Shown piece after piece: positions 3 to 31,359 of a stretch of DNA of 64,000 nucleotides (positions within the stretch are counted from its first letter, which is position 1; each line of letters starts with the position of its first letter). The stretch is from Ureibacillus sinduriensis BLB-1 = JCM 15800. Its GTDB lineage: Bacteria > Bacillota > Bacilli > Bacillales_A > Planococcaceae. The notes below the pieces were generated by a model. That model did no database searches. It saw nothing but the letters and a program-made list of their open reading frames with translations, and was not told the origin of the DNA. The translations under genes were made by a program, and so were the position numbers. Where the stretch lies: the NCBI RefSeq assembly GCF_000772955.1, contig NZ_JPVO01000055.1, forward strand, positions 124,001-188,000, written 5' to 3'.

Positions 3-779
3 AGCGAGTTTTTTATGTTTGCCGTAAACAATGGTGTTGTAACGCAAGCATATACGAATGCAGAAATGTCTGATATTAGTCCTTATAAAATGGGGCAATC
101 TCTCGAAGACATTTATGGTATGTCGATTATAGATTCAGAAGTGAGCACAACAATCGAAGATAATGTTTATACGTTTTCGATGAGTGAAGATGATATGAAT
201 ACGAGGATTTTAACGAAGTTCGATAGTCTTTTCGCACAGCTTTATATCGACAGTGAAACAGGTACGTTAAGCGGCGTTCGATTTATGGACAGCAGAACGT
301 TGGTCATACACCGTCCCTATGAAATGTCTTTTGTCGGCAAGTTGTTGTCACCGCCTAATCCAACTTCCTATCTAATAGAAGAAAGTAATAGGTCGAATGC
401 AACGCAAATTTATGACTTGTTGAATGTATTCCGAGTCAACAATGAACTACCGATCCTGGCCGCTCATGATGCTGCAACAATGGTTGCTATGGAGCATAGT
501 GAAGAAATGTATTCCCAAAGTTATTTGTCCCATGAATCACCAACCAAGGGGTCCTTAAAGGAAAGATTGGAATCTGAAAAAATCGAGTATAAGAACGCAG
601 AGGAAAATATCGCCACCTCCTATATTGACTCGATTGAGGCAGTACATGGATGGCTAAATTCAAATGCACATCGCAAGTATATGCTGGATGAGTCGTATAC
701 TCATGTGGGATCTGGATCATTCATGAACTATTATACTCAAATCTTTATTGAAGAAGAGATGGGTCAATTGGAAGAATAA
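3..779 (+). CDS. ylbC: CAP/SCP-domain protein, YlbC-like, 5' partial
   Basis: The reading frame is already open at the left edge: codons before the first ATG (base 15) continue without a stop, so the gene begins outside the window. The first ~85 visible residues resemble the domain found upstream of CAP domains in Bacillus YlbC (VVTQAYTN, then SPYKMGQS). Residues ~130-250 form a CAP (cysteine-rich secretory/antigen 5/PR-1) domain. Its hallmarks are the region of VAMEHSEEM, the SHESP segment, AEENIATS and GWLNSNAHR, which carry the conserved His/Glu cleft residues of bacterial CAP proteins. Such proteins are usually exported and act at the cell surface; no enzymatic role is established. The B. 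subtilis protein is about 346 residues, so roughly 85-90 N-terminal residues, including any signal peptide, are missing. A hairpin with a T-run follows. Confidence 0.85.
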   Translation, partial: SEFFMFAVNNGVVTQAYTNAEMSDISPYKMGQSLEDIYGMSIIDSEVSTTIEDNVYTFSMSEDDMNTRILTKFDSLFAQLYIDSETGTLSGVRFMDSRTLVIHRPYEMSFVGKLLSPPNPTSYLIEESNRSNATQIYDLLNVFRVNNELPILAAHDAATMVAMEHSEEMYSQSYLSHESPTKGSLKERLESEKIEYKNAEENIATSYIDSIEAVHGWLNSNAHRKYMLDESYTHVGSGSFMNYYTQIFIEEEMGQLEE

Positions 780-832: not shown

Positions 833-907
833 TAATAATTTTTAAGCCACGAAAATTTAGTGTCACTATTGGAACCTAGGCATAAAATAGGGAAAAGGAG
901 TGACAGC

Positions 908-2383
908 TTGCAACTAGCAGAACTTTTAAAAGAATGGCCATGTACAGTAAAAGGTGGTTCTATTCGAGTTGAAGTAACTGGAATTGAGGATTATGCACAA
1001 GGTGTCAAAGATGGCGATTTATTCATCGTACGTAAAGGCCGAAAATCCGATGGTTTAAAATATGTGGATATGGCCATAAAAAATGGGGCAATCGGTATCG
1101 TCATTGAAGATGAAAAGCAGTTGGATTCTCTAAAATTAACTGTTCCGGTCATCTGGGTTCCCAACGTCTTGAAATTTATGTCATATAGTGCTGCAAAACT
1201 AAATCAATTTCCGGCTGATGCAATGCAAGTTATCGCAATTACAGGTACAAATGGAAAAACAACAGTTAGTCATTTTATCGGACAGATACTACACGCACTA
1301 CATAAAAACGTAATAGTCATTGGAACAAATGGAATCTACATTAACGGTGTTGAAGTAAATATAGATTACGAGCATTTAACTACACTTCAGCCGAAACATC
1401 TACACAAGATATTGAAAATAGCGGTTAGCCGTGGTGTGGAATATGTCGTCTTGGAAGCTTCCTCTATGGGGCTTGCAAAACATCGCCTGGACGATTGTTC
1501 GATCGATATTGGGGTCTTCTTAAATTTGGCGGAGGATCATATTGAAGATCATGGGTCCTATGATAAATATAAAGCTGCCAAACAACTGCTTGCCACACTT
1601 TCAGATCAACTTGTTTTAAATGGGGACGATTCCTTTTGTCGAACAGTAGGTCTCCAAGCAAAAAAGAAAAAGGCTTATTTTGGTCTTGGAAATCGAGTGG
1701 ATTATCAACTCCAGCTCCTTGCTGAAGGGCTGACGACCTCAACATGTTGCCTGCAAAGCAATAAGGGTCAGAAAGTATTCGCGGTTCCTTTTGTCGGGGA
1801 GCACCATTTACAAAACACGATTGCAGCCATTACAGCTGTAAGTGAACTTGGTTTTTCCATAGAGGATATTTGTGAGGCCGTAAATAAGCTTACTTTGCCG
1901 GATGGCCGGCTAGAAGTAATTGAAAATAATTTAGACATCGATATTTATATTGATTATGCACATACAGAAGCAGCATTAAGAGCAGTTTTGCAAACTTTGA
2001 ACAAAACTGTCAAACGAAATTTAGTTGTCATATTCAGCTGCGGCGGTGACCGGGATAAACACAAAAGAATCAAGATGGGTGCTGTTGCCTCAAAATATGC
2101 AGACATGATTTATTTGACGACGGATAACCCTCGCAGCGAAGATCCCGAACTCATCAACGCTCAAATTGCTGCGGGATTTTCTCCGAAACAACAGTACGAA
2201 ATGATATTAGACAGGGGAGAGGCGATTGAAACGGCAATCCGTAAGGCAAAAAAAGGGGATACTATTTTAATTGCTGGAAAAGGTCACGAAACAACACAAA
2301 CAATAGGTTCGGTGGAAATTAACTTCTCTGATTATGAAAGCGTGAAACTTGCACTCGATAAAGTGTCAAGAGATCTTGTGTAG
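908..2383 (+). CDS. murE: MurE-family UDP-MurNAc-tripeptide synthetase
   Basis: ATP-dependent cytoplasmic ligase that adds the third amino acid to UDP-MurNAc-L-Ala-D-Glu. I start it at TTG 908 because AAAAGGAG at 893-900 sits 7 nt upstream; an in-frame GTG at 860 has no ribosome site. That gives 491 residues, normal for MurE. Visible: N-terminal substrate domain (GVKDGDLFIVRKG, SDGLKY), P-loop TGTNGKTT near residue 113, the C-terminal FSCGGDRDKHKR segment, DNPRSEDP near 400, and the closing GKGHE motif near 460. In characterised MurE enzymes DNPR marks meso-diaminopimelate specificity, whereas lysine-adding enzymes carry other residues (for example DNPA). The centre is divergent: LTTLQP where NTTPE is usual, LEASSMGL where EVSSHAL is usual, and LNLAEDHIEDHGS where TNLTQDHLDYH is usual. 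The gene stands alone where B. subtilis has ylbD/ylbE, and the dcw cluster downstream has no murE. Confidence 0.85.
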   Translation: MQLAELLKEWPCTVKGGSIRVEVTGIEDYAQGVKDGDLFIVRKGRKSDGLKYVDMAIKNGAIGIVIEDEKQLDSLKLTVPVIWVPNVLKFMSYSAAKLNQFPADAMQVIAITGTNGKTTVSHFIGQILHALHKNVIVIGTNGIYINGVEVNIDYEHLTTLQPKHLHKILKIAVSRGVEYVVLEASSMGLAKHRLDDCSIDIGVFLNLAEDHIEDHGSYDKYKAAKQLLATLSDQLVLNGDDSFCRTVGLQAKKKKAYFGLGNRVDYQLQLLAEGLTTSTCCLQSNKGQKVFAVPFVGEHHLQNTIAAITAVSELGFSIEDICEAVNKLTLPDGRLEVIENNLDIDIYIDYAHTEAALRAVLQTLNKTVKRNLVVIFSCGGDRDKHKRIKMGAVASKYADMIYLTTDNPRSEDPELINAQIAAGFSPKQQYEMILDRGEAIETAIRKAKKGDTILIAGKGHETTQTIGSVEINFSDYESVKLALDKVSRDLV

Positions 2384-2508: not shown

Positions 2509-2637
2509 TATGGCCCACCTCTACATTTTTGGGATTTTACAGCAACAAAAATAAATCCCCCACTAAAATTCGTAACTTCTTAATACAAATTTCTTTAGAA
2601 TTCTGCTATGATTGGTGATAGTAGATTGGAGGAAATA

Positions 2638-3090
2638 ATGATGATAATGACATCAGAATGGGCCTTCATCTTAGATGAAGCAGATGAAATAAGTGCGATG
2701 ATTCTTTCATCAGAACAAGCTCAAAGGTTGCGCAATGCATATGAGGATGTTTATGGTGATGAAAATCTGGTCCACCAAATTTCTGTATTTAAACGCATGA
2801 AAGAACAATATGAGGATGTCCAACGATTTGGCAAATACCATCCTGATTATCATACAATCATGAAGCAAATTCGTCAGCTGAAAAGAAGTCTGGATATAGA
2901 TGAGCGGGTTGCGAATCTGAAGGTAGCAGAAAATGACTTTCAAGACTTGCTAGATGAACTAAGCTTGATTATTGGAAAGTCTGTATCAGAAGCTGTAAAG
3001 GTTCCGGTAAGTAATCCGTTCTTTGCAACAAGCTCTTCTTCTTGTGGAACGGGCTGTGGGACTGGTGGAAGCTGTTCTTGCTCAGCTTAA
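2638..3090 (+). CDS. ylbF: YlbF (RicF), Y-complex subunit
   Basis: Small all-helical protein of the YlbF/YmcA family. In B. subtilis it forms the Y (Ric) complex with YmcA and YaaT, which promotes RNase Y-dependent mRNA maturation and is needed for competence, biofilm formation and Spo0A-dependent sporulation. The segment EQYEDVQRFGKYHPDYHTI is nearly identical to B. subtilis YlbF. The C-terminus CGTGCGTGGSCSCSA carries four cysteines of the type that ligate the Fe-S cluster in the Ric complex. I start at ATG 2638 because GGAGG at 2628-2632 is 5 nt upstream (an ATG at 2641 is equally possible); upstream in-frame codons lack a ribosome site. Length about 150 residues, as expected. Its partner genes are not in this window. 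Confidence 0.95.
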   Translation: MMIMTSEWAFILDEADEISAMILSSEQAQRLRNAYEDVYGDENLVHQISVFKRMKEQYEDVQRFGKYHPDYHTIMKQIRQLKRSLDIDERVANLKVAENDFQDLLDELSLIIGKSVSEAVKVPVSNPFFATSSSSCGTGCGTGGSCSCSA

Positions 3091-21703: not shown

Positions 21704-23632
21704 ATGAAGTGGATTTCGACCATTTCAAAGAAACGCTTAAAGTTGATTGTTTATGGGTTTATTCTTTTTGGGATAGCGGTTGTTATTAGGTTATTTTATG
21801 TACAAGTCATTCAGCACGATGAATTGACGAAACTTGCAAAAGAGAATTGGGATAGGGAGATTCCGTTTGCTTCAGAAAGAGGGGAAATTGTCGACCGTAA
21901 CGGGGAAACCATCGTAACGAATAAATTGGCTCCGACTCTTTATTTTATGCCTGCACAAAATGATAATATTGAAGAAGCTGCCAAGCAAATTGCTTCGGTG
22001 TTAGATCTGGATGCAGACAAGTTGTTCGAAAAAATGAATAAGCGGACTTATTTAGTAAAACTTGCACCAGAGGCCAAAAATATTACGTATGAACAAGCTG
22101 TTGAAATTCAGAGTCTCAAGATCGACGGTTTGTATAGTGGCGTAGACTATGTCCGACATTACCCTTATGGAAATTTATTGTCGCGCTTTATCGGTTTTAC
22201 AGGCTATGATACACAAGGTCTTGCCGGTATTGAGTACCAATATGACAAAGTATTGACTTCCAAGGAGGCTGCAATTCGACTCTTTACTGATGCGCAGGGG
22301 AATTCCCTGCCTCATGTGGATGATGAATGGCGTGAAGGAGATCAAGGAGCAACTGTCGAGCTAACGATTGATTTGGAAGTCCAAAAGGTAGTGGAACGAG
22401 AGTTATCGCAAGCGATGGAAAAATATGATGCCGATCAGGCATTAGCAATTGCCATGAATGTAAATACTGGTGAAATATTGGGGCTGTCATCGTATCCTAC
22501 ATATGATCCCGCTAATTTTGATGATGTAGATCAATCAATTTATAACCGCAATTTGCCAGTTTGGATGACCTATGAGCCGGGGTCTACATTTAAAATTATT
22601 ACACTAAGTGCAGCACTTGAGGAAAACGTTGTCGATTTAGAAAAAGATACGTTTTTTGACAAGGGATATACAATTGTGGAAGATACACGGTTGCGTTGTT
22701 GGAAGCGTGAAGGTCATGGCCAAGAGACGTTCATGCAAGTTGTAGAAAATTCCTGCAATCCAGGTTTTATCGAGCTAGGTCAGCGAGTGGGCTCTGACAA
22801 GCTTCTGCAATATATAAAAGATTTCGGTTTTGGTGAACCTACTGGCTCCAATATTCCAGGGGAAGCATCCGGTATACTTTTTTCCAAAGAAAACTTTGGA
22901 CCTGTCGAACATGCCACAACCTCCTTTGGCCAAGGGATTGCTGTTACGCCGATTCAACAGGTTCAAGCAGTAGCAGCTGCAGTTAACGGTGGGAAATTAT
23001 TTACACCGTATGTCGTTTCCAAAGTCGTAGATCCGGAATCTGGCAAGGTCATTTCTGAAACTAAGCCAGAAATGAAACGAACAGTCATAAGTGAAGCGAC
23101 ATCTGCAAAAGTCCGTAACGCATTGGAATCGGTTGTTGCCAATGGATCAGGTAGACAAGCATTTCGTGATGGTCTCCGTATTGGCGGCAAAACAGGAACG
23201 GCACAAAAAGCGGTTGATGGCCGATATAAAGATGGAGAATATATCGTTTCCTTTATCGGTTTTGCACCTGCGGATAAACCCGAGGTTGTAGTTTATGTGG
23301 CAATCGACAATCCGAAAAGCGCGACAGTTTTTGGTAGTACAATTGCCGCGCCTATCGTCGGACAAATTATTGAAGATATTGCACCTACAGTCGGCATTGA
23401 AGTAAATCGTGAAGGACAAATGGAAAAGCAATATCGTTGGGGAGACCCTATAACGGACCGAGTTCCTAATTTGGTTGGTTATTCGGTAGATGAATTAGCA
23501 AAATTACAATATCCATTTAAGATGGAGTTGCATGGCGAAGGTACGATTATCAAATCACAATTGCCTGAACCAGATAATATTCTTGAACAAGATGGAACAA
23601 TACATCTTTACTTAGACGAAAAAAATGAATGA
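21704..23632 (+). CDS. spoVD: Sporulation transpeptidase SpoVD
   Basis: Class B PBP needed for spore cortex synthesis in the mother cell. Membrane helix ~13-34, SERGEIVDRNGETIV dimerisation segment, transpeptidase domain with S294xxK297 (YEPGSTFKII), the SCN triad in ENSCNPGF, and KTG in IGGKTGTAQK (~500). A single C-terminal PASTA domain (DRVPNLVGYSVDELAKL) distinguishes it from PBP 2B and fits the SpoVD layout. 642 residues (B. subtilis 646). It acts with SpoVE and is preceded by its own sigma-E promoter. In B. subtilis murE follows; here mraY does. Confidence 0.94.
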   Translation: MKWISTISKKRLKLIVYGFILFGIAVVIRLFYVQVIQHDELTKLAKENWDREIPFASERGEIVDRNGETIVTNKLAPTLYFMPAQNDNIEEAAKQIASVLDLDADKLFEKMNKRTYLVKLAPEAKNITYEQAVEIQSLKIDGLYSGVDYVRHYPYGNLLSRFIGFTGYDTQGLAGIEYQYDKVLTSKEAAIRLFTDAQGNSLPHVDDEWREGDQGATVELTIDLEVQKVVERELSQAMEKYDADQALAIAMNVNTGEILGLSSYPTYDPANFDDVDQSIYNRNLPVWMTYEPGSTFKIITLSAALEENVVDLEKDTFFDKGYTIVEDTRLRCWKREGHGQETFMQVVENSCNPGFIELGQRVGSDKLLQYIKDFGFGEPTGSNIPGEASGILFSKENFGPVEHATTSFGQGIAVTPIQQVQAVAAAVNGGKLFTPYVVSKVVDPESGKVISETKPEMKRTVISEATSAKVRNALESVVANGSGRQAFRDGLRIGGKTGTAQKAVDGRYKDGEYIVSFIGFAPADKPEVVVYVAIDNPKSATVFGSTIAAPIVGQIIEDIAPTVGIEVNREGQMEKQYRWGDPITDRVPNLVGYSVDELAKLQYPFKMELHGEGTIIKSQLPEPDNILEQDGTIHLYLDEKNE

Positions 23633-23712: not shown

Positions 23713-24687
23713 ATGACAATCACAACAACAATAACCATTCTAGCAATTTCATTTATCGTTTCTGTGGTTTTAGCACCGATATTCATCCCGTTGCTTCGTC
23801 GATTGAAGTTTGGACAGAGTATTCGGGAAGAAGGTCCACAATCACATATGAAAAAAGCTGGAACTCCAACAATGGGGGGCATAATTTTTTTAATCTCGAT
23901 AATTGCTACAACGGTAATTGTTGGAAATATGTACGACATATTTACGACTCAATCAATCGTCATCATTCTAGTGCTGGCTGGATTCGGCTTGATCGGATTT
24001 TTGGATGATGGGATAAAAGTAATTTTTAAACGTAATCTAGGGTTAACATCTTTGCAAAAGTTAATTGGCCAAATCATTATCTCAATCGCTGCATTTCTAT
24101 TATTGCGGCTTGGTTCATTCGATACATCAATTAATGTGCCGTTTATCGATTGGTCGATTGATTTAGGTATTTTATATGTAGGTTTTTTAATTTTCTGGTT
24201 GGTCGGTTTCTCAAATGCGGTAAACTTGACGGACGGATTAGATGGACTGGTTGCTGGGACTGCATCGATTGCCTTTACTGCATTTGGAGTGATTGCACTA
24301 TATAATGAACAGGCCGATGTTGCACTATTTACATTTGCGGTGACGGGTGCGCTTTTAGGATTTTTAATTTTCAATGCAAATCCTGCAAAAGTATTTATGG
24401 GTGATACAGGATCCCTCGCTTTGGGCGGATCCCTCGCCCTTGTCTCCATCCTTGTGAAAGCGGAGTTGCTTTTACTGTTGATTGGGTTGGTTTTTGTTAT
24501 TGAAACATTATCGGTTATCCTGCAGGTGGCAAGTTTTAAATTACGAGGCAAACGTATTTTTAAAATGAGTCCGATCCATCACCATTTTGAATTGTCCGGC
24601 TGGTCAGAGCGCAAAGTTGTCGGCGTCTTTTGGTCAACGGCAGTAGTAGTGGCATTAATCGCAGTAGTATCGGAGGCATTGCTATGA
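23713..24687 (+). CDS. mraY: Phospho-MurNAc-pentapeptide translocase MraY
   Basis: Transfers phospho-MurNAc-pentapeptide onto undecaprenyl phosphate, making lipid I. Ten or so membrane helices. Signatures: KKAGTPTMGG (~residues 45-54), GFLDDGIKV (~95-103, the DDxxK type motif), NLTDGLDGLVAG (~175-186), GDTGSLALGG (~229-238) and the cytoplasmic HHHFELSGWSE near the end. 324 residues, normal. Overlaps murD by four bases (ATGA). Confidence 0.98.
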   Translation: MTITTTITILAISFIVSVVLAPIFIPLLRRLKFGQSIREEGPQSHMKKAGTPTMGGIIFLISIIATTVIVGNMYDIFTTQSIVIILVLAGFGLIGFLDDGIKVIFKRNLGLTSLQKLIGQIIISIAAFLLLRLGSFDTSINVPFIDWSIDLGILYVGFLIFWLVGFSNAVNLTDGLDGLVAGTASIAFTAFGVIALYNEQADVALFTFAVTGALLGFLIFNANPAKVFMGDTGSLALGGSLALVSILVKAELLLLLIGLVFVIETLSVILQVASFKLRGKRIFKMSPIHHHFELSGWSERKVVGVFWSTAVVVALIAVVSEALL

Positions 24688-26033
24688 TTGAATATACAAA
24701 ATTGCAACATAAAAAAGTCTTGGTATTGGGATTGGCAAAAAGTGGCGTAGCTGCCGCGGAACTGCTTCATCAATTAGGTGCTTTCGTTACAGTGAATGAT
24801 TCAAAGCCTTTTGATGAAAATCCACAGGCACAAAGCTTGCTAGAAAAAGGGATTACTGTGATCTGTGGTCGACATCCAGAAGATTTGCTTGATGAAGGAT
24901 TTGAATTGCTTGTCAAAAATCCTGGCATTCCATATACAAACCCTATCGTGGATGATGCGGTGAAACGGGGGGTGCAGGTGATTACAGAAGTCGAACTTGC
25001 TTATTTAGTCAGCGATGCACCGATTATCGGAATTACGGGGACAAATGGGAAAACGACAACGACAACTTTGATTTTCGAAATGTTAAATAGAGGACGGAAA
25101 AGTCCATTAATTGCTGGAAATATAGGAACAGTTGCTTGCGGAGTGGCGGCTGGTGCGACAAAAGACAATGTTATCGTGACGGAACTTTCCTCATTCCAGC
25201 TAATGGGGACGAAAGAGTTCAAACCGAAAATTGCCATTCTGACGAATTTATACGATGCACATTTAGATTACCATGGTAGTTTTGAGGACTACGCAAATGC
25301 TAAATTCAATATTACGAAAAATCAAGATGAATCGGATTGGTTCATATACAATGCCGATCAGGAAATAGTGAATGAATATGCTGCTAAATCGAAGGCAGGT
25401 AAAATACCTTTTAGTTCAAATGGACGGTCCGATGTCGGCATCAGTGCTGATGACGAGATGATCTATTGGCAGGGTGAAGCCTTTTTAGAAAGAGTAAATA
25501 TAGCACTCCCAGGGAAACATAACTTAGAAAATATTTTGGCAGCACTTGCAGCCTGTATTCTATACGGCTGTGAAAAAAAAGCTTTAGAAGAAGTGTTGAA
25601 AACTTTCACTGGAGTCCGTCACCGTACACAGTTTGTTCGGGAGTGGAATGGACGGAAAATTTATAACGACTCAAAAGCGACAAACTGTCTGGCAACAAAA
25701 GTTGCTTTGGAGGCTTTCACACAGCCAATAATTTTACTGGCTGGGGGGTTGGATCGGAATCACTCCTTTGAGGAGCTTCGTGCATCCATGAAGAATGTGA
25801 AAAGTGTTGTAGCATTTGGACAGACAGGTGAAAGATTTATCGAATTTGCAAAATCATGTGGAGTTGAAGAAGCGGTATTGGCAGAAGATGTAGAGGATGC
25901 CGTAACGAAAGCAGCTTCAATTTCCGAAGATGGTGATGTTTTATTATTGTCTCCTGCATGTGCCAGCTGGGATCAGTACAAAAGCTTTGAAATTCGCGGG
26001 GATTTGTTCATTGAAGCTGTAATGAAGCTGTAA
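24684..26033 (+). CDS. murD: UDP-N-acetylmuramoylalanine--D-glutamate ligase MurD
   Basis: Adds D-glutamate to UDP-MurNAc-L-Ala. N-terminal Rossmann motif VLVLGLAKSGVAAA, P-loop GITGTNGKTTTTTLI (~residues 114-128), ELSSFQL, HNLENILAA and NDSKATNCLA; a C-terminal domain with LLLSPACASWDQYKSFEIRG. Starting at ATG 24684 (overlapping the mraY stop) gives 449 residues, the normal size. Followed by a terminator-like hairpin rather than a tight junction to the next gene. Confidence 0.97.
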   Translation: MIEYTKLQHKKVLVLGLAKSGVAAAELLHQLGAFVTVNDSKPFDENPQAQSLLEKGITVICGRHPEDLLDEGFELLVKNPGIPYTNPIVDDAVKRGVQVITEVELAYLVSDAPIIGITGTNGKTTTTTLIFEMLNRGRKSPLIAGNIGTVACGVAAGATKDNVIVTELSSFQLMGTKEFKPKIAILTNLYDAHLDYHGSFEDYANAKFNITKNQDESDWFIYNADQEIVNEYAAKSKAGKIPFSSNGRSDVGISADDEMIYWQGEAFLERVNIALPGKHNLENILAALAACILYGCEKKALEEVLKTFTGVRHRTQFVREWNGRKIYNDSKATNCLATKVALEAFTQPIILLAGGLDRNHSFEELRASMKNVKSVVAFGQTGERFIEFAKSCGVEEAVLAEDVEDAVTKAASISEDGDVLLLSPACASWDQYKSFEIRGDLFIEAVMKL

Positions 26034-26073
26034 TGGAAGTAGGGCGGATTTTTAGTGAAAAGATTAAACTTTT

Positions 26074-26110
26074 GTGCTTAGAGCAAATTCCTCTAAGCAC
26101 AGTGCTTTTT
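26074..26110 (+). terminator. Terminator-like hairpin between murD and spoVE/ftsW
   Basis: Perfect 10-bp stem GTGCTTAGAG (26074-26083) / CTCTAAGCAC (26091-26100), 7-nt loop, followed by AGTGCTTTTT. It sits inside the dcw cluster, 28 nt before the next start, so it may attenuate transcription of the distal division genes. Confidence 0.75.
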
Positions 26111-26137
26111 GAGTATTTATAAGAAAGGATGCCTTAG

Positions 26138-27223
26138 CTGAAGTTTACCTATAAGAGGCTCTTCATATTTTCTGCAATCTCGCTGTCATTGTTTGGAATC
26201 ACTTTCATTTATTCTGCCGGTACATATTGGAGTGCGATTCACTACGAAGGTGAACTGCCTTTCTATATTAAGCAACTTATTTACTTGATTTTAGCTTTAG
26301 CTGTATTTCTAACTGTTACCAATATGCCGCTCTTTACTCAGGAAAAGACTTGGATTGTACTCTATGTGTTCTCTCTAGTATTATTGGTTCTAGTATTGAT
26401 TCCTGGTATCGGCCTTGAACGAAATGGTTCCCAAAGCTGGATTGGTCTTGGTCCACTAACCATTCAACCAGCAGAACTCGTCAAAATAACGACTTTGATG
26501 TATTTAAGTTTTTTGCTAAGTAAAGTCAAAAATGATGAGCGTGTTGTCCAGATAAAACACTTTTTAATCATAATCCTTCCGTGTGCATTAATTATGCTGC
26601 AGCCAGATTTTGGGTCTGTGTTCATCCTAGTGGTAGCGGCGTTTATTTTACTTTTCATTGCCAAATACCCAATCAAATTATATGTTGGGTTTATAGTTCT
26701 GGGGATAGTTGGTTTGGTTGCGTTAATTGCTTCTGCTCCATATCGTCTGAAACGGATTGAAGCTTTTATCAATCCTTGGGCGGATCCATTAGTTAGTGGC
26801 TTCCAGGCAGTGCAATCGTTGCTGGCGATAGGTCCGGCAGGGTTATTGGGACATGGATTCCAGGAAAGCCGTCAAAAGTTTCTATACTTGCCAGAGCCTC
26901 AAAATGACTTTATCTTCTCCATAATCCTGGAGGAAATTGGATTCTTGGGTGGATGTGTGGTGTTGGCACTTTTTGCTGTTTTTATATATTCAGGCTGTGG
27001 ACTAGCCATTCAATCACTGAAAAGTTCCGATTTTTATGCCATCTCCGCGTTGGTCGGGATGGTAGGATTCCAAGCAGCATTAAATATTGGAGTTGTTATC
27101 GGTCTGATTCCCGTAACTGGAGTAACTTTGCCTTTTATTAGTTACGGTGGTACATCGCTGATGATTATTTGGTTTGTTGTGGCCATTATAATTAGCTTTG
27201 CAAATCGAACCGACAATACCTAA
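26138..27223 (+). CDS. spoVE: SEDS lipid II polymerase SpoVE/FtsW
   Basis: Polytopic SEDS glycosyltransferase that polymerises lipid II with a partner class B PBP (SpoVD for SpoVE, PBP 2B for FtsW). Signatures: LVLIPGIGLERNGSQSWIGLGPLTIQPAELVK (seen in pieces from residue ~77), MLQPDFGS, ESRQKFLYLPEPQNDFIFSIILEEIGFLGG and VTGVTLPFISYGGTS. A start at TTG 26189 would delete the first helix and has no ribosome site. The frame is open back to CTG 26138, preceded by AAAGGA with 8-nt spacing, and then supplies KFTYKRLFIFSAISLSLFG, aligning with transmembrane helix 1 of SpoVE. I therefore infer a CTG start (361 residues; B. subtilis SpoVE 366). An in-frame ATG-CCT-TAG precedes it directly. Which of the two roles it plays is not decided by sequence alone; position favours SpoVE. 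Confidence 0.88.
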   Translation: MKFTYKRLFIFSAISLSLFGITFIYSAGTYWSAIHYEGELPFYIKQLIYLILALAVFLTVTNMPLFTQEKTWIVLYVFSLVLLVLVLIPGIGLERNGSQSWIGLGPLTIQPAELVKITTLMYLSFLLSKVKNDERVVQIKHFLIIILPCALIMLQPDFGSVFILVVAAFILLFIAKYPIKLYVGFIVLGIVGLVALIASAPYRLKRIEAFINPWADPLVSGFQAVQSLLAIGPAGLLGHGFQESRQKFLYLPEPQNDFIFSIILEEIGFLGGCVVLALFAVFIYSGCGLAIQSLKSSDFYAISALVGMVGFQAALNIGVVIGLIPVTGVTLPFISYGGTSLMIIWFVVAIIISFANRTDNT

Positions 27224-27295
27224 GTCCTATATATAAAATGATGGTATGATATCAACCATATGAAAAGAAAGTGGAGGAAAGGAGGAGTAAAAATT

Positions 27296-28138
27296 ATGGA
27301 TAAAGTAATCGATATCGAAGAACGGATTCCAACTCTCAGAGAAAAAAGAAGAAAAAGAACAAACTTTAAATTTATTTTTTTGATTGTAATATTCTTGGCA
27401 ACATTATTTTTACTCCTTTACTTTCAATCTCCATATAGCGAAATCAAAAATGTTGAAGTGGTTGGTGCCGAGTTGGTAGACGCGGATTATTATAGAGAAC
27501 AATCCACTTTACAACCGGGAGATTCGATGTGGGGATTTAAAGTAACTGATGTTTCGGACAAAATAAGCAGGGAACACTGGGTAAAGGATGTTTCGGTAAA
27601 AAGAAAATGGTTGACAACCGTGCAAATCGAAGTCGAAGAATGGGAAAAGGTTGCATACATATCACTTGAAAATGAGCTTTATCCTATGTTGGAAAATGGA
27701 GATATATTCAAAGAAGCCAGCAGCTTGGCGCCTATTGATGCTCCGTTATTTTTGGAATTTGAGGATGAAAAATTGAGGAAAAGGGTATTGGAGGAACTTG
27801 CAAAGTTGGATTCGACGGTCCTATCGTTAATTTCTCAAATAAATTCCACACCCAGCAGTGCAGACCCTTATGCACTTACCCTTTTTATGAATGACGGGTA
27901 TGAAGTCCGAGCAGAGGTTACTACTTTAGCCGAAAAGTTGAATTATTACCCTTCCATTGTTGCTCAAATCGAGAGCGCCGGTTCTACTGAAAAGGGGATA
28001 ATTGATATCGAGGTAGGTTCGTATTATAAATCCTATCAAGATGAGTATGTGGAACTTGACTTAAATACGGATGTGTTAGATGGAGCGGTGAGTGAAGAAC
28101 AGGAAGTGATGGATGATGAAGAAACCACTTCAGACTAA
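27296..28138 (+). CDS. divIB: Cell division protein DivIB (FtsQ family)
   Basis: Bitopic divisome protein. Basic cytoplasmic head (LREKRRKRTNFK), one helix (~residues 24-42), then the POTRA domain (IKNVEVVGAELVDADYYREQ...) followed by the beta domain (HWVKDVSVKRKWLTTVQIEVEEWEKVAYI) and an acidic C-terminal tail. ATG 27296 is preceded by GGAGG (27281-27285); the frame extends upstream to 27260, but the ribosome site decides. 280 residues (B. subtilis 263). It overlaps ylxW by 26 bases. In B. subtilis murG and murB stand between spoVE and divIB; both are absent here. Confidence 0.9.
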   Translation: MDKVIDIEERIPTLREKRRKRTNFKFIFLIVIFLATLFLLLYFQSPYSEIKNVEVVGAELVDADYYREQSTLQPGDSMWGFKVTDVSDKISREHWVKDVSVKRKWLTTVQIEVEEWEKVAYISLENELYPMLENGDIFKEASSLAPIDAPLFLEFEDEKLRKRVLEELAKLDSTVLSLISQINSTPSSADPYALTLFMNDGYEVRAEVTTLAEKLNYYPSIVAQIESAGSTEKGIIDIEVGSYYKSYQDEYVELDLNTDVLDGAVSEEQEVMDDEETTSD

Positions 28139-28835
28139 AAAAAACAGCAAATTTACAAGAAAGCAGCTCATCATACTAATTGTATGCATCACAACAGGAT
28201 TTATTATCGGTTACTCCTATAAATTAACAAAAAATCATGAAAACCGAAATAACTCCTATGTAGAACAAGAAGAATCATACCGTGAAGACTTAATTCACCA
28301 GCAGGAAAGAAACAAAGAATTGGCGGAAGAATTGAGGGATCTGCAAGAACGGCTGAGAGATTACGAAAGGTCCTTTGCAAAGGATGAAGATAAATATGAG
28401 CATTTACTTGAGGAAGCCGAGAAGTTGCGATTGATGCTCGGTAAAATTCCTTCCCAAGGACCTGGAGTACAAGTCACTCTGAACGACAATGAATATGATC
28501 CCAATTCAACAAACCCAAATGAATATATCGTGCATGAAAGCCATGTCTTTTCTGTAATCAATGAGTTGAAGATATCTGGAGCCGAAAGTATCTCGATTAA
28601 TGGGCAAAGGTTAAAATCGAATTCATATATCAGATGTAATGGCCCGGTAATAACAATTGATGGGAAGCATTATCCTGCTCCGTTTGTCATTGAAGCAGTC
28701 GGGGATTCGAAAACACTTATATCTTCTTTAAAAATTGTCGGAGGAGTATTTGACCAATTACTAAGTGATAATATTGTGGTAACGATTGAGGAGAAAAATC
28801 TTATACAAATGGATTCAATAAGTGATGAAGCATAA
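28113..28835 (+). CDS. ylxW: DUF881 family protein YlxW
   Basis: 240 residues. Membrane helix ~17-35 (QLIILIVCITTGFIIGY), an extracytoplasmic coiled coil (~50-110, EQEESYREDLIHQQERNKELAEELRDLQERL), then the DUF881 domain (GPGVQVTLND, NELKISGAESISINGQRL, FVIEAVGDSKTL). Second position after divIB in Bacillales; function unproven, probably linked to division or envelope assembly. Starts within the 3' end of divIB (ATG 28113 or 28116). Confidence 0.85.
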   Translation: MMKKPLQTKKNSKFTRKQLIILIVCITTGFIIGYSYKLTKNHENRNNSYVEQEESYREDLIHQQERNKELAEELRDLQERLRDYERSFAKDEDKYEHLLEEAEKLRLMLGKIPSQGPGVQVTLNDNEYDPNSTNPNEYIVHESHVFSVINELKISGAESISINGQRLKSNSYIRCNGPVITIDGKHYPAPFVIEAVGDSKTLISSLKIVGGVFDQLLSDNIVVTIEEKNLIQMDSISDEA

Positions 28836-28877
28836 CTTTATCCGAGGACAAGCCCAGAGCGTTTAGGAGGGGAACCG

Positions 28878-29597
28878 ATGAAGAAAAGAATAGTTACCCA
28901 AATGACGGTTATCTCATTTATTGTAGGTCTTATGATTGCTGTTCAATATAATACAGTTCAAAATCCTACAACAAGGGACACAAGGGATATTTGGGCAATC
29001 AGGCAGGAACTATCCGAAGAAAAGGAAAATCACTCAAAGTTGTTATCGGAAATAGCCACTTATAATGAATTTATCGAACAGTATAAGGACGATGATACTC
29101 AAAGTCAGGCTGCATTGTTAAATAAAACGGTCGATGATCTTAAACGTGAAATTGGACTATTGCCTGTCAATGGGCCTGGATTGGTGCTTGATATTAGCCC
29201 AGCCATGGAATTAGTGCAATTTGGTTATGAGATTGAACCCATTGCACCTGATTTATTAATTCGATTAGTAAATGAAATCTACCGCTATAATGGCCTTTAT
29301 ATCGAAATTGCGGGGCAACGCCTTACACATCGATCGGCTATTCGGGATATCAATGGTGCAACAACGGTCAATGGTGTTGCCATTGATGAGACGGATATTA
29401 ACATTAAAATTATAACCGAAACCTTCGAAAAAGCTGAAAAGCTATATGGTTACTTATATGCTTCAACTTTTAGGGATGATTTTTACTTGGATAATCTAAA
29501 CTTGCGTATAAATGGAGCGCAAAAAAATATTAAAATTGCAGAAGTTGACGGACCATTATCAACAGATTACTTAGTTGAAAACAACGAAGGGGACTAA
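28878..29597 (+). CDS. ylxX: DUF881 family protein YlxX
   Basis: 239-residue paralogue of the preceding gene: N-terminal hydrophobic segment (~8-24), short helical region, then DUF881 (LLPVNGPGLVLDISPAM, YNGLYIEIAGQRLTHRSAIRDINGATTVNG). Strong GGAGGGG ribosome site before ATG 28878. The two neighbouring copies reflect an old tandem duplication shared with B. subtilis ylxW-ylxX. Confidence 0.85.
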   Translation: MKKRIVTQMTVISFIVGLMIAVQYNTVQNPTTRDTRDIWAIRQELSEEKENHSKLLSEIATYNEFIEQYKDDDTQSQAALLNKTVDDLKREIGLLPVNGPGLVLDISPAMELVQFGYEIEPIAPDLLIRLVNEIYRYNGLYIEIAGQRLTHRSAIRDINGATTVNGVAIDETDINIKIITETFEKAEKLYGYLYASTFRDDFYLDNLNLRINGAQKNIKIAEVDGPLSTDYLVENNEGD

Positions 29598-29599
29598 CT

Positions 29600-29968
29600 A
29601 TGTGGTTACCATTATTAGGACTAATATTAGGCTTAAGTTTAGGAGTATTAACCGATATACAAATCCCTGCTATTTATGAAAATTATTTATCAATAGCAGT
29701 ATTGGCGGCTTTGGATACTTTATTTGGAGGAATACGTGCAAATCTGCAACAAGTATATGACGATAAAGTATTTGTATCCGGTTTTTTCTTTAATATAGCA
29801 CTTGCTGCAGGACTGGCATTTTTGGGCGTCCATCTGGGTGTTGACCTCTATTTGGCTGCCATATTTGCCTTTGGTGTCCGATTGTTCCAAAATATTGCAG
29901 TCATTCGACGAATTTTGATATCAAAATGGGAAGAGAGACATATAAAAAAGGATGAAAATACAGTATAA
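29600..29968 (+). CDS. sbp: Small basic membrane protein Sbp (DUF1290)
   Basis: 122 residues, three to four hydrophobic segments (LPLLGLILGLSLGVLTDI; YLSIAVLAALDTLFGGI; FNIALAAGLAFLGVHLGVDL) and a conserved FGVRLFQNIAVIRR ending. Matches B. subtilis Sbp, located just before ftsA. Starts two bases after the ylxX stop. Function unknown. Confidence 0.9.
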   Translation: MWLPLLGLILGLSLGVLTDIQIPAIYENYLSIAVLAALDTLFGGIRANLQQVYDDKVFVSGFFFNIALAAGLAFLGVHLGVDLYLAAIFAFGVRLFQNIAVIRRILISKWEERHIKKDENTV

Positions 29969-30003
29969 TAGCTGTAAAATTAAATCTTGTATATGATTTT
30001 ATT

Positions 30004-30032
30004 TAGACATTACTTTGGAATTACAATAGAAT
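30004..30032 (+). promoter_or_regulatory. Sigma-A promoter of ftsA-ftsZ
   Basis: TAGACA (30004-30009), 17 bp, TAGAAT (30027-30032): five of six matches in each hexamer, 32 nt before ftsA. B. subtilis also has promoters at this spot. Confidence 0.75.
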
Positions 30033-30063
30033 AAAATATAGCAGGAAACGAAGGAGGTGCGGA

Positions 30064-31359
30064 ATGATGAATCACCAAGATATTTATATATCACTTGATA
30101 TTGGTTCATCTTCTATTAAAGTTTTGATAGGAGAGATTACAGATAACCAATTGCACGTAATTGGTGTTGGTAATGTAAAATCCAACGGTATACGTAAAGG
30201 CGCAATCGTTGATATAGATGCTACTGTACAATCCATTAAAAAAGCAATCGAACAAGCAGAACGCATGACAGGAATCAAAATAAACGAAGTAGTACTTGGT
30301 ATACCCGCAAATCAAACAACACTTCAACCAGTAAAAGGTGTAGTAGCTGTAAATAGTGAAAACCGTGAAATTACTGATGAAGATTTAGACAGAGTAATTG
30401 AATCCGCACAAGTGATGTCAATTCCACCAGAAAGAGAACTTGTTAATATAATCCCACGTCAATTCATAGTTGATAATCTAGATGAAATTAAAGACCCACG
30501 CGGTATGATTGGTATTCGTTTAGAAATGGATGCTACAATGATTACAACTTCCAAAACATTAGTCCATAATGTTTTGCGTTGTGTAGAACGTGCTGGATTG
30601 CAAATTAGAGAAATCTATTTACAACCGTTGGCAGCTGGATCTTTTGCTTTGACTGAAGACGAAAAAAATCAAGGAACAGCCTTTATCGATCTAGGGGGAG
30701 GTTCCACTACTGTAGCAGTATTCGAAGAAGGTTTACTCACACGGACAGGGGTGATCCCTGTTGGTGGCGAACATATAACGAAAGATTTATCGATTGTACT
30801 TAAGACACCAACTGAGCAAGCGGAAATTATAAAAAAACAGTTTGGACATGCCTTTTATGATGATGCTTCGGATGATGAAATTTTTGAAGTGCCTGTATCT
30901 GGCACCGATGCGATGGATCAGTACAGCCAAAAGTTCATTTCAGAAATTATCGGTGTCCGTCTTGAAGAATTATTCGAACTAGTTTTAGATGAATTGGCCC
31001 GTTTAGGAGTTCGTGATTTGCCTGGTGGAGTAGTCCTTACAGGTGGTGTTGCACAACTAGAGGGAATTGCACAGCTTGCTCGCCAAGTTATGCAAACACG
31101 TGTAAGAATTTATACTCCAGACTATATTGGGGTTCGTGAATCGGCATATACAACAGCTGTAGGTTTAATACGTTATGCACATTTAGAGGATGAATTCTAT
31201 GGTAGAAGTCCAGTCCAAGCGCCAGCATATGCTTCAGTCGGTGCTGGAACACCGCCTCCTAAAAAAACATCCAACACTGTGGAAAAAGATAGCAATAATA
31301 CAAACAAAACAAGCGTAATTAATAAAGCTAAGAAACTTTTCGATAAGTTCTTTGAATAA
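30064..31359 (+). CDS. ftsA: Cell division protein FtsA
   Basis: Actin-like membrane tether of the FtsZ ring. SLDIGSSSIKVLIGE (phosphate-1 loop) at the N-terminus, IDLGGGSTTVAVFEEG (phosphate-2, ~residues 203-218), and GGVVLTGGVAQLEG (adenosine motif). The extreme C-terminus INKAKKLFDKFFE is the amphipathic membrane-targeting helix. 431 residues. AAGGAGGT lies 5-6 nt before the ATG. Forms an operon with ftsZ, 33 nt downstream. Confidence 0.98.
   Translation: MMNHQDIYISLDIGSSSIKVLIGEITDNQLHVIGVGNVKSNGIRKGAIVDIDATVQSIKKAIEQAERMTGIKINEVVLGIPANQTTLQPVKGVVAVNSENREITDEDLDRVIESAQVMSIPPERELVNIIPRQFIVDNLDEIKDPRGMIGIRLEMDATMITTSKTLVHNVLRCVERAGLQIREIYLQPLAAGSFALTEDEKNQGTAFIDLGGGSTTVAVFEEGLLTRTGVIPVGGEHITKDLSIVLKTPTEQAEIIKKQFGHAFYDDASDDEIFEVPVSGTDAMDQYSQKFISEIIGVRLEELFELVLDELARLGVRDLPGGVVLTGGVAQLEGIAQLARQVMQTRVRIYTPDYIGVRESAYTTAVGLIRYAHLEDEFYGRSPVQAPAYASVGAGTPPPKKTSNTVEKDSNNTNKTSVINKAKKLFDKFFE

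Follow-up and report, generated by a model that had tools for sequence, protein, structure and literature searches.

A second murE gene that tracks sporulation genes in the family of Ureibacillus sinduriensis and probably encodes the diaminopimelate ligase of the spore cortex

Known MurE ligases and the two murE genes of this genome

Ureibacillus has a lysine-containing vegetative wall, and the spore cortex of Bacillus sphaericus contains diaminopimelate. In the 1970s, Linnett and Tipper reportedly described a sporulation-induced meso-diaminopimelate ligase activity in Bacillus (Lysinibacillus) sphaericus. The gene analyzed here, murE2, resembles that system in being a second ligase beside a lysine ligase, in being tied to sporulation, and in occurring in the same family of bacteria, but the B. 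sphaericus enzyme is known as an activity, whereas murE2 is known here from sequence. Excerpts of two papers describe the vegetative wall of Lysinibacillus as Lys-Asp type (PMC4363355, PMC10434897). A search restricted to open-licence papers found none on a second, sporulation MurE and none assigning the murE2 gene, and the word murE is absent from the main text of a survey of sporulation genes (PMC3533761). Our best reading is that murE2 would be the gene for the ligase known from the classical biochemistry of B. sphaericus.

Three groups of characterized or annotated MurE enzymes are useful for comparison. The L-lysine ligase of Staphylococcus aureus (4c12) belongs to the MurE family and is a close relative of MurE1, the other MurE of this genome (470 bits), but matches MurE2 at 229 bits and has DNPA where MurE2 has DNPR. 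The Thermotoga maritima lysine ligase (4bub) scores highest against MurE2 among the solved structures (243 bits), but has DDPR, as in MurE1. The diaminopimelate-type MurE enzymes of Bacillaceae (Bacillus zhangzhouensis, Neobacillus muris) share DNPR with MurE2 and are expected to catalyze the same reaction, whereas MurE2 forms a separate clade, its gene lies away from the dcw cluster, and the genome encodes another MurE besides.

The window is the whole stretch of DNA that was analyzed, 64,000 nucleotides of U. sinduriensis, a member of a genus that belongs to the Caryophanaceae; its features are listed in Table 1. murE2 encodes an intact MurE ligase other than the housekeeping copy: the protein has the Mur ligase domains and scores 427 bits against the MurE model TIGR01085 (curated cut-off 257.3), and the TTG behind AAAAGGAG is the best start also among the orthologues listed. 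The preliminary description had read TGTNGKT, DNPRSEDP, and GKGHE as intact, and they are. The ATP-site motif TGTNGKT is invariant in a 19-row alignment, as are T158, T159, S185, S186, and R193, which we take to form the dipeptide site with roles as in E. coli MurE, K225, presumably the carbamylated lysine, H215, and the diaminopimelate-type residues N407 and R409 (DNPR) and G457 and E461 (GKGHE). These invariant residues rule out a decayed copy. Because the active-site residues are kept, the earlier suggestion of a repurposed ligase is superfluous. The three segments that had been noted as departing from the MurE pattern do depart from it and are common to murE2's own clade; the His of the usual EVSSH is absent in 27/27 rows of this clade (hereafter, window-type), and 22/22 MurE1 rows have EVSSHG.

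Table 1. Features of the murE2 locus and of related loci
Feature	Position	Strand	Basis or detail
YlbC-like CAP protein, upstream neighbor, cut by window edge	3..779	+	Pfam CAP_assoc_N + CAP (run on L010:7710-8780)
Mother-cell-type promoter element GTGTC-N16-CATAAAATA	860..889	+	-35 at 860-864, -10 at 881-889; conserved in orthologues
Shine-Dalgarno AAAAGGAG	893..900	+	sequence; kept in same-genus orthologues
murE2, sporulation-linked MurE	908..2383	+	491 aa; TTG start 908, TAG stop 2381-2383
Codons for DNPR, diaminopimelate-type motif	2123..2134	+	sequence; motif counts
ylbF, downstream neighbor	2608..3090	+	Pfam Com_YlbF
spoVD	21704..23632	+	TIGR02214, 699 bits (cut-off 688)
mraY, immediately after spoVD	23713..24687	+	TIGR00445
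ACT-less short aspartokinases	L235:7856-8587, L236:8327-9055, L237:8089-8832, L238:7692-8519, L239:8813-9556, L240:9279-10064, L243:8179-8850		Pfam

The preliminary description had suspected another MurE elsewhere and had named a single murE in the genome as the finding that would count against its reading. The genome search returned two, and only two, MurE proteins over the family cut-off, the window gene and MurE1 (G000:C1:43655-45124), which lies 81 kb from murE2, with prfC as the next gene downstream; a prfC-like frame stands behind MurE1 in 40/51 loci. The S. aureus lysine ligase is the nearest match of MurE1 (470 bits, with the next at 311 bits), and MurE1 is 34-35% identical to MurE2 of this genome. 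Thus, murE2 is separate from the gene for the lysine-type ligase, as would be expected of a B. sphaericus-type sporulation ligase. MurE1 is also the only MurE found in all eight genomes of genus g10, which by protein identity is Kurthia (97% to a 'Candidatus Kurt...' entry, 74% to K. sibirica), a genus with a lysine wall and no spores. Given MurE1 in the same genome, the window gene was rejected as its sole or vegetative murE.

Two further groups of ligases were seen in the family. Genera g2 and g5 are without MurE1 and have instead a long-branched MurE with ATNGKT and no DNPR-like motif (L099-L105), and several genera, both spore-forming and non-spore-forming, have more MurE-like ligases, in which the specificity motif reads DHPG or DDLN (L106-L130).

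The neighbors of murE2 are, as first described, YlbC-like (CAP_assoc_N/CAP) and Com_YlbF proteins, and the TIGR02214 and TIGR00445 matches place spoVD directly before mraY without a murE in between. The order ylbC, murE2, ylbF is kept in the 13 genera read, with Pfam support for YlbC and YlbF in the window and in g3 and identification from the ORF list elsewhere; one or two extra genes separate murE2 from ylbF in g2, g5, g6, g11, g14, g18, and g19. Between murD and ftsA (window positions 24630-31359), an FtsW/SpoVE-like gene and divIB were seen; murG and murB were not found in the ORF list for this interval, which was read by eye with some ORFs checked by family.

In phylogenetic trees, the window-type rows together with Sporosarcina highlanderae lie on one side of a branch with an SH-aLRT of 91 (81 without the long-branched G020), apart from MurE1 (SH-aLRT 100) and from the Bacillaceae MurE. 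An origin of murE2 as a relocated Bacillaceae dcw murE was rejected, as no such grouping appears in the tree, in which deep nodes are weak. Across 299 sampled genomes of the class, all 17 matches above 455 bits are in the window's family and the best match outside it reaches 454 bits, and a clade widespread in the class was therefore rejected.

Substrate motif and promoter element

According to excerpts of a study of the S. aureus enzyme (PMC3829189), the DNPR motif holds the free carboxyl of diaminopimelate through its Asn and Arg, S. aureus MurE has DNPA, the A409R variant of that enzyme has no diaminopimelate activity, and the enzyme relies on the pool of lysine instead of selecting tightly; the DNPR motif by itself is thus not sufficient to set specificity. 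Among 53 window-type genes, the motif is DNPR in 45, DNAR in 3, DNCR in 2, DNSR in 2, and DSPR in 1, so that it is changed in 8/53, with the Asn kept in 52/53 and the Arg in 53/53. All 51 MurE1 proteins have DDPR, with Asp replacing Asn. Scores against solved structures show no favorite: MurE2 matches the diaminopimelate ligases at 230 and 229 bits, about equal to its scores for the T. maritima and S. aureus lysine ligases given above. Both copies pass the cut-off of the NCBIfam diaminopimelate-ligase model NF001126, MurE1 with the higher score, and both, MurE1 included, fail the lysine-ligase model. Most of the source names listed call either copy a 'diaminopimelate ligase', and automatic annotation of this kind should be treated with caution.

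Taken with its distribution and promoter, these residues suggest that murE2 probably encodes a mother-cell sporulation ligase that adds meso-diaminopimelate to cortex precursors, with MurE1 making the vegetative lysine wall. It is unlikely that MurE2 is instead an unspecific or lysine-adding isozyme for sporulation, with the mother cell's substrate supply accounting for any diaminopimelate in the cortex. The reliance of the S. aureus enzyme on the lysine pool, the insufficiency of the motif alone (excerpts of PMC3829189), and the even scores against solved structures would fit such an isozyme, but the motif Asn and Arg persist in a clade that evolves fast and in which the proline varies, MurE1 carries Asp for Asn in every case, and a separate ligase would hardly be required for adding the same residue.

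A promoter element of mother-cell type precedes murE2. The pattern GT[G/C]NC-N16/17-CATANNNT[A/G] occurs within 200 nt upstream of 49/53 window-type genes (all except L087, L089, L090, and L093), compared to 0.02 expected from first-order random sequences, an expectation that is too favorable because the pattern was written after many sequences had been seen. CATANNNTA alone occurs upstream of 51/53 (3.5 expected). For MurE1 genes, the full pattern was found in 0/51 and CATANNNTA alone in 2/51 (5.4 expected), and for other MurE-like genes, including L095, the values were 0/36 and 3/36. The 53-gene set excludes the duplicate L002 and the divergent L095; some of the chosen starts are false (g5 rows, L078-L081), and those upstream slices are therefore shifted. 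The genome contains the exact GTGTC element three times and, as a control, a reversed pattern twice. The other two exact matches are at G000:C21:99391-99420 and C21:109068-109098 (L233, L234).

Assignment of the element to a sigma factor is less certain. Upstream of the genome's own spoIVA is TCATATT-N14-CATAGACTA, which we take to be the sigmaE form. The -35 of sigmaK promoters ends in AC, whereas in the window's genus the -35 of murE2 ends in TC. By spacing, the murE2 element may be sigmaK-like, with sigmaE as the alternative; the comparison is with a 5-base -35, a spacing of 15 ± 1, and a 10-base -10, as given for sigmaK in an excerpt of PMC517825, and assumes that two bases of the -10 block precede CATA. 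The choice between sigmaE and sigmaK appears less clear in genera with GTGACATTT.

Precursors of the germ-cell wall are made in the forespore. A role of MurE2 in another sporulation step, for example in the germ-cell wall, or on a non-wall substrate is very unlikely: the clade-specific central motifs and the long branches would fit such a role, but the clade shows no variation at the residues that form the ATP, dipeptide, and third-residue sites, and the mother-cell type of the promoter element argues against the germ-cell wall.

Distribution of murE2 and spoIVA

To relate murE2 to sporulation, each of 151 genomes of the family was searched for MurE, the window protein, and spoIVA. spoIVA scored over the cut-off in 113 genomes, was present as a piece at a contig end in G099, gave broken or partial matches in G001, G038, and G054, and had no match in 34. 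Window-type MurE, defined by at least 37% identity and 280 bits, was over threshold in 112 genomes; to these were added G002, with two pieces in one frame, and G020, whose gene is below threshold (36% identity) but has DNPR and the same neighborhood. With G099 counted among the spore-formers and G020 among the murE2 carriers, window-type MurE was found in the same 114/114 genomes with spoIVA and in 0/37 without spoIVA or with broken spoIVA. In a second set of 37 further genomes, all from the already-sampled genera g3, g8, and g14, it was present in 20/20 with spoIVA (42-58% identity; G163 in two pieces) and in 0/17 without, where matches were at most 33% identical. Overall, 134/134 spoIVA genomes have the gene, the G020 copy being divergent, compared to 0/54 others with an intact copy. 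Thus, the sporulation-type ligase proposed in the preliminary description gains support from the co-occurrence with spoIVA across 188 genomes and from the mother-cell-type promoter element. G020, a fourth genome of g2 beside the three with broken or partial spoIVA, has full spoIVA; its murE2 is divergent, in a frame of 439 residues in which GKGHE has no match, and may have lost part of its function.

Genomes of the same genus are related, and changes were therefore counted on a tree. Well-supported branches of the MurE1 tree (41 family rows and 3 outgroups; g2 and g5, without MurE1, are absent) force at least five spore/non-spore changes. Where spoIVA is broken in g2 (three genomes), only C-terminal murE2 remnants are left between ylbC and ylbF, and sporulation in g2 thus appears to be in the process of being lost, with spoIVA and murE2 decaying together. 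In these genomes (L299, L300, L301), both genes are broken or partial. No murE2 match was found in the 4 kb before a retained ylbF in one genome each of g7, g8, g9, g10, g12, and g16; ylbC was not found in the g9 genome. The L. sphaericus C3-41 genome has sporulation genes, including spoIVA, that are missing or frameshifted and was judged insufficiently reliable by the authors of the survey of sporulation genes (PMC3533761); single genomes can therefore mislead. It is extremely improbable that MurE2 is a vegetative ligase linked to spoIVA through shared ancestry only, a reading favored by the relatedness of genomes within a genus and by the origin of the second set in three already-sampled genera, but opposed by the separate changes on the MurE1 tree, by the further joint decay with spoIVA inside g2, and by a promoter that differs from that of MurE1.

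A predicted switch in wall chemistry and the neighboring kinase

In the favored reading, that of a cortex diaminopimelate ligase, murE2 would be switched on in the mother cell during sporulation from a sigmaK-like promoter, and MurE2, as a second UDP-MurNAc-L-Ala-D-Glu ligase, would add meso-diaminopimelate to precursors of the spore cortex. MurE1 would build the vegetative, lysine-containing wall, and turning on murE2 would change the wall chemistry of the cell. We infer the substrate, timing, cell type, and cortex use of MurE2. An old observation, two wall chemistries in one bacterium, would thereby be given a gene, and the two-MurE arrangement, which is family-wide and lost with sporulation, bears on the question of what a bacterium with a lysine wall needs diaminopimelate for in its spores. 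In excerpts of PMC10434897, the response that Lysinibacillus fusiformis induces in flies is more Gram-negative-like (Imd), a property that the authors relate to the unusual Lys-Asp wall of this bacterium; speculatively, diaminopimelate from sporulating cells might be another cause of this response.

Aspartokinase catalyzes the first step to diaminopimelate and lysine. In 7 of the 13 genera read (g2, g3, g4, g5, g6, g11, and g17), ylbC and murE2 flank a divergent gene for a protein with an amino-acid-kinase domain and, in 7/7 by Pfam, no ACT domain. The three kinases run against the NCBIfam aspartokinase model, which we take to be of the DapG type, match only about the first 250 of its 405 positions. 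In 6/7 genera, 19-25 nt separate the murE2 -35 from the start of the kinase. This ACT-less aspartokinase could be a feeder of diaminopimelate for the spore. More tentatively, spore-forming Caryophanaceae may possess a wall-switching module, in which MurE2 under a mother-cell promoter is joined, in about half of the genera read, by the divergent DapG-type aspartokinase, which would have lost its regulatory ACT half, as a feedback-free source of cortex diaminopimelate; such a kinase would allow the lysine-walled cell to switch wall chemistry during sporulation. The window's genome has no ACT-less aspartokinase beside murE2; in this genome, the aspartokinase model matches frames of 412 and 457 residues and, weakly, one of 248. 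Part of the divergent kinase remains in the g2 genomes G038 and G054.
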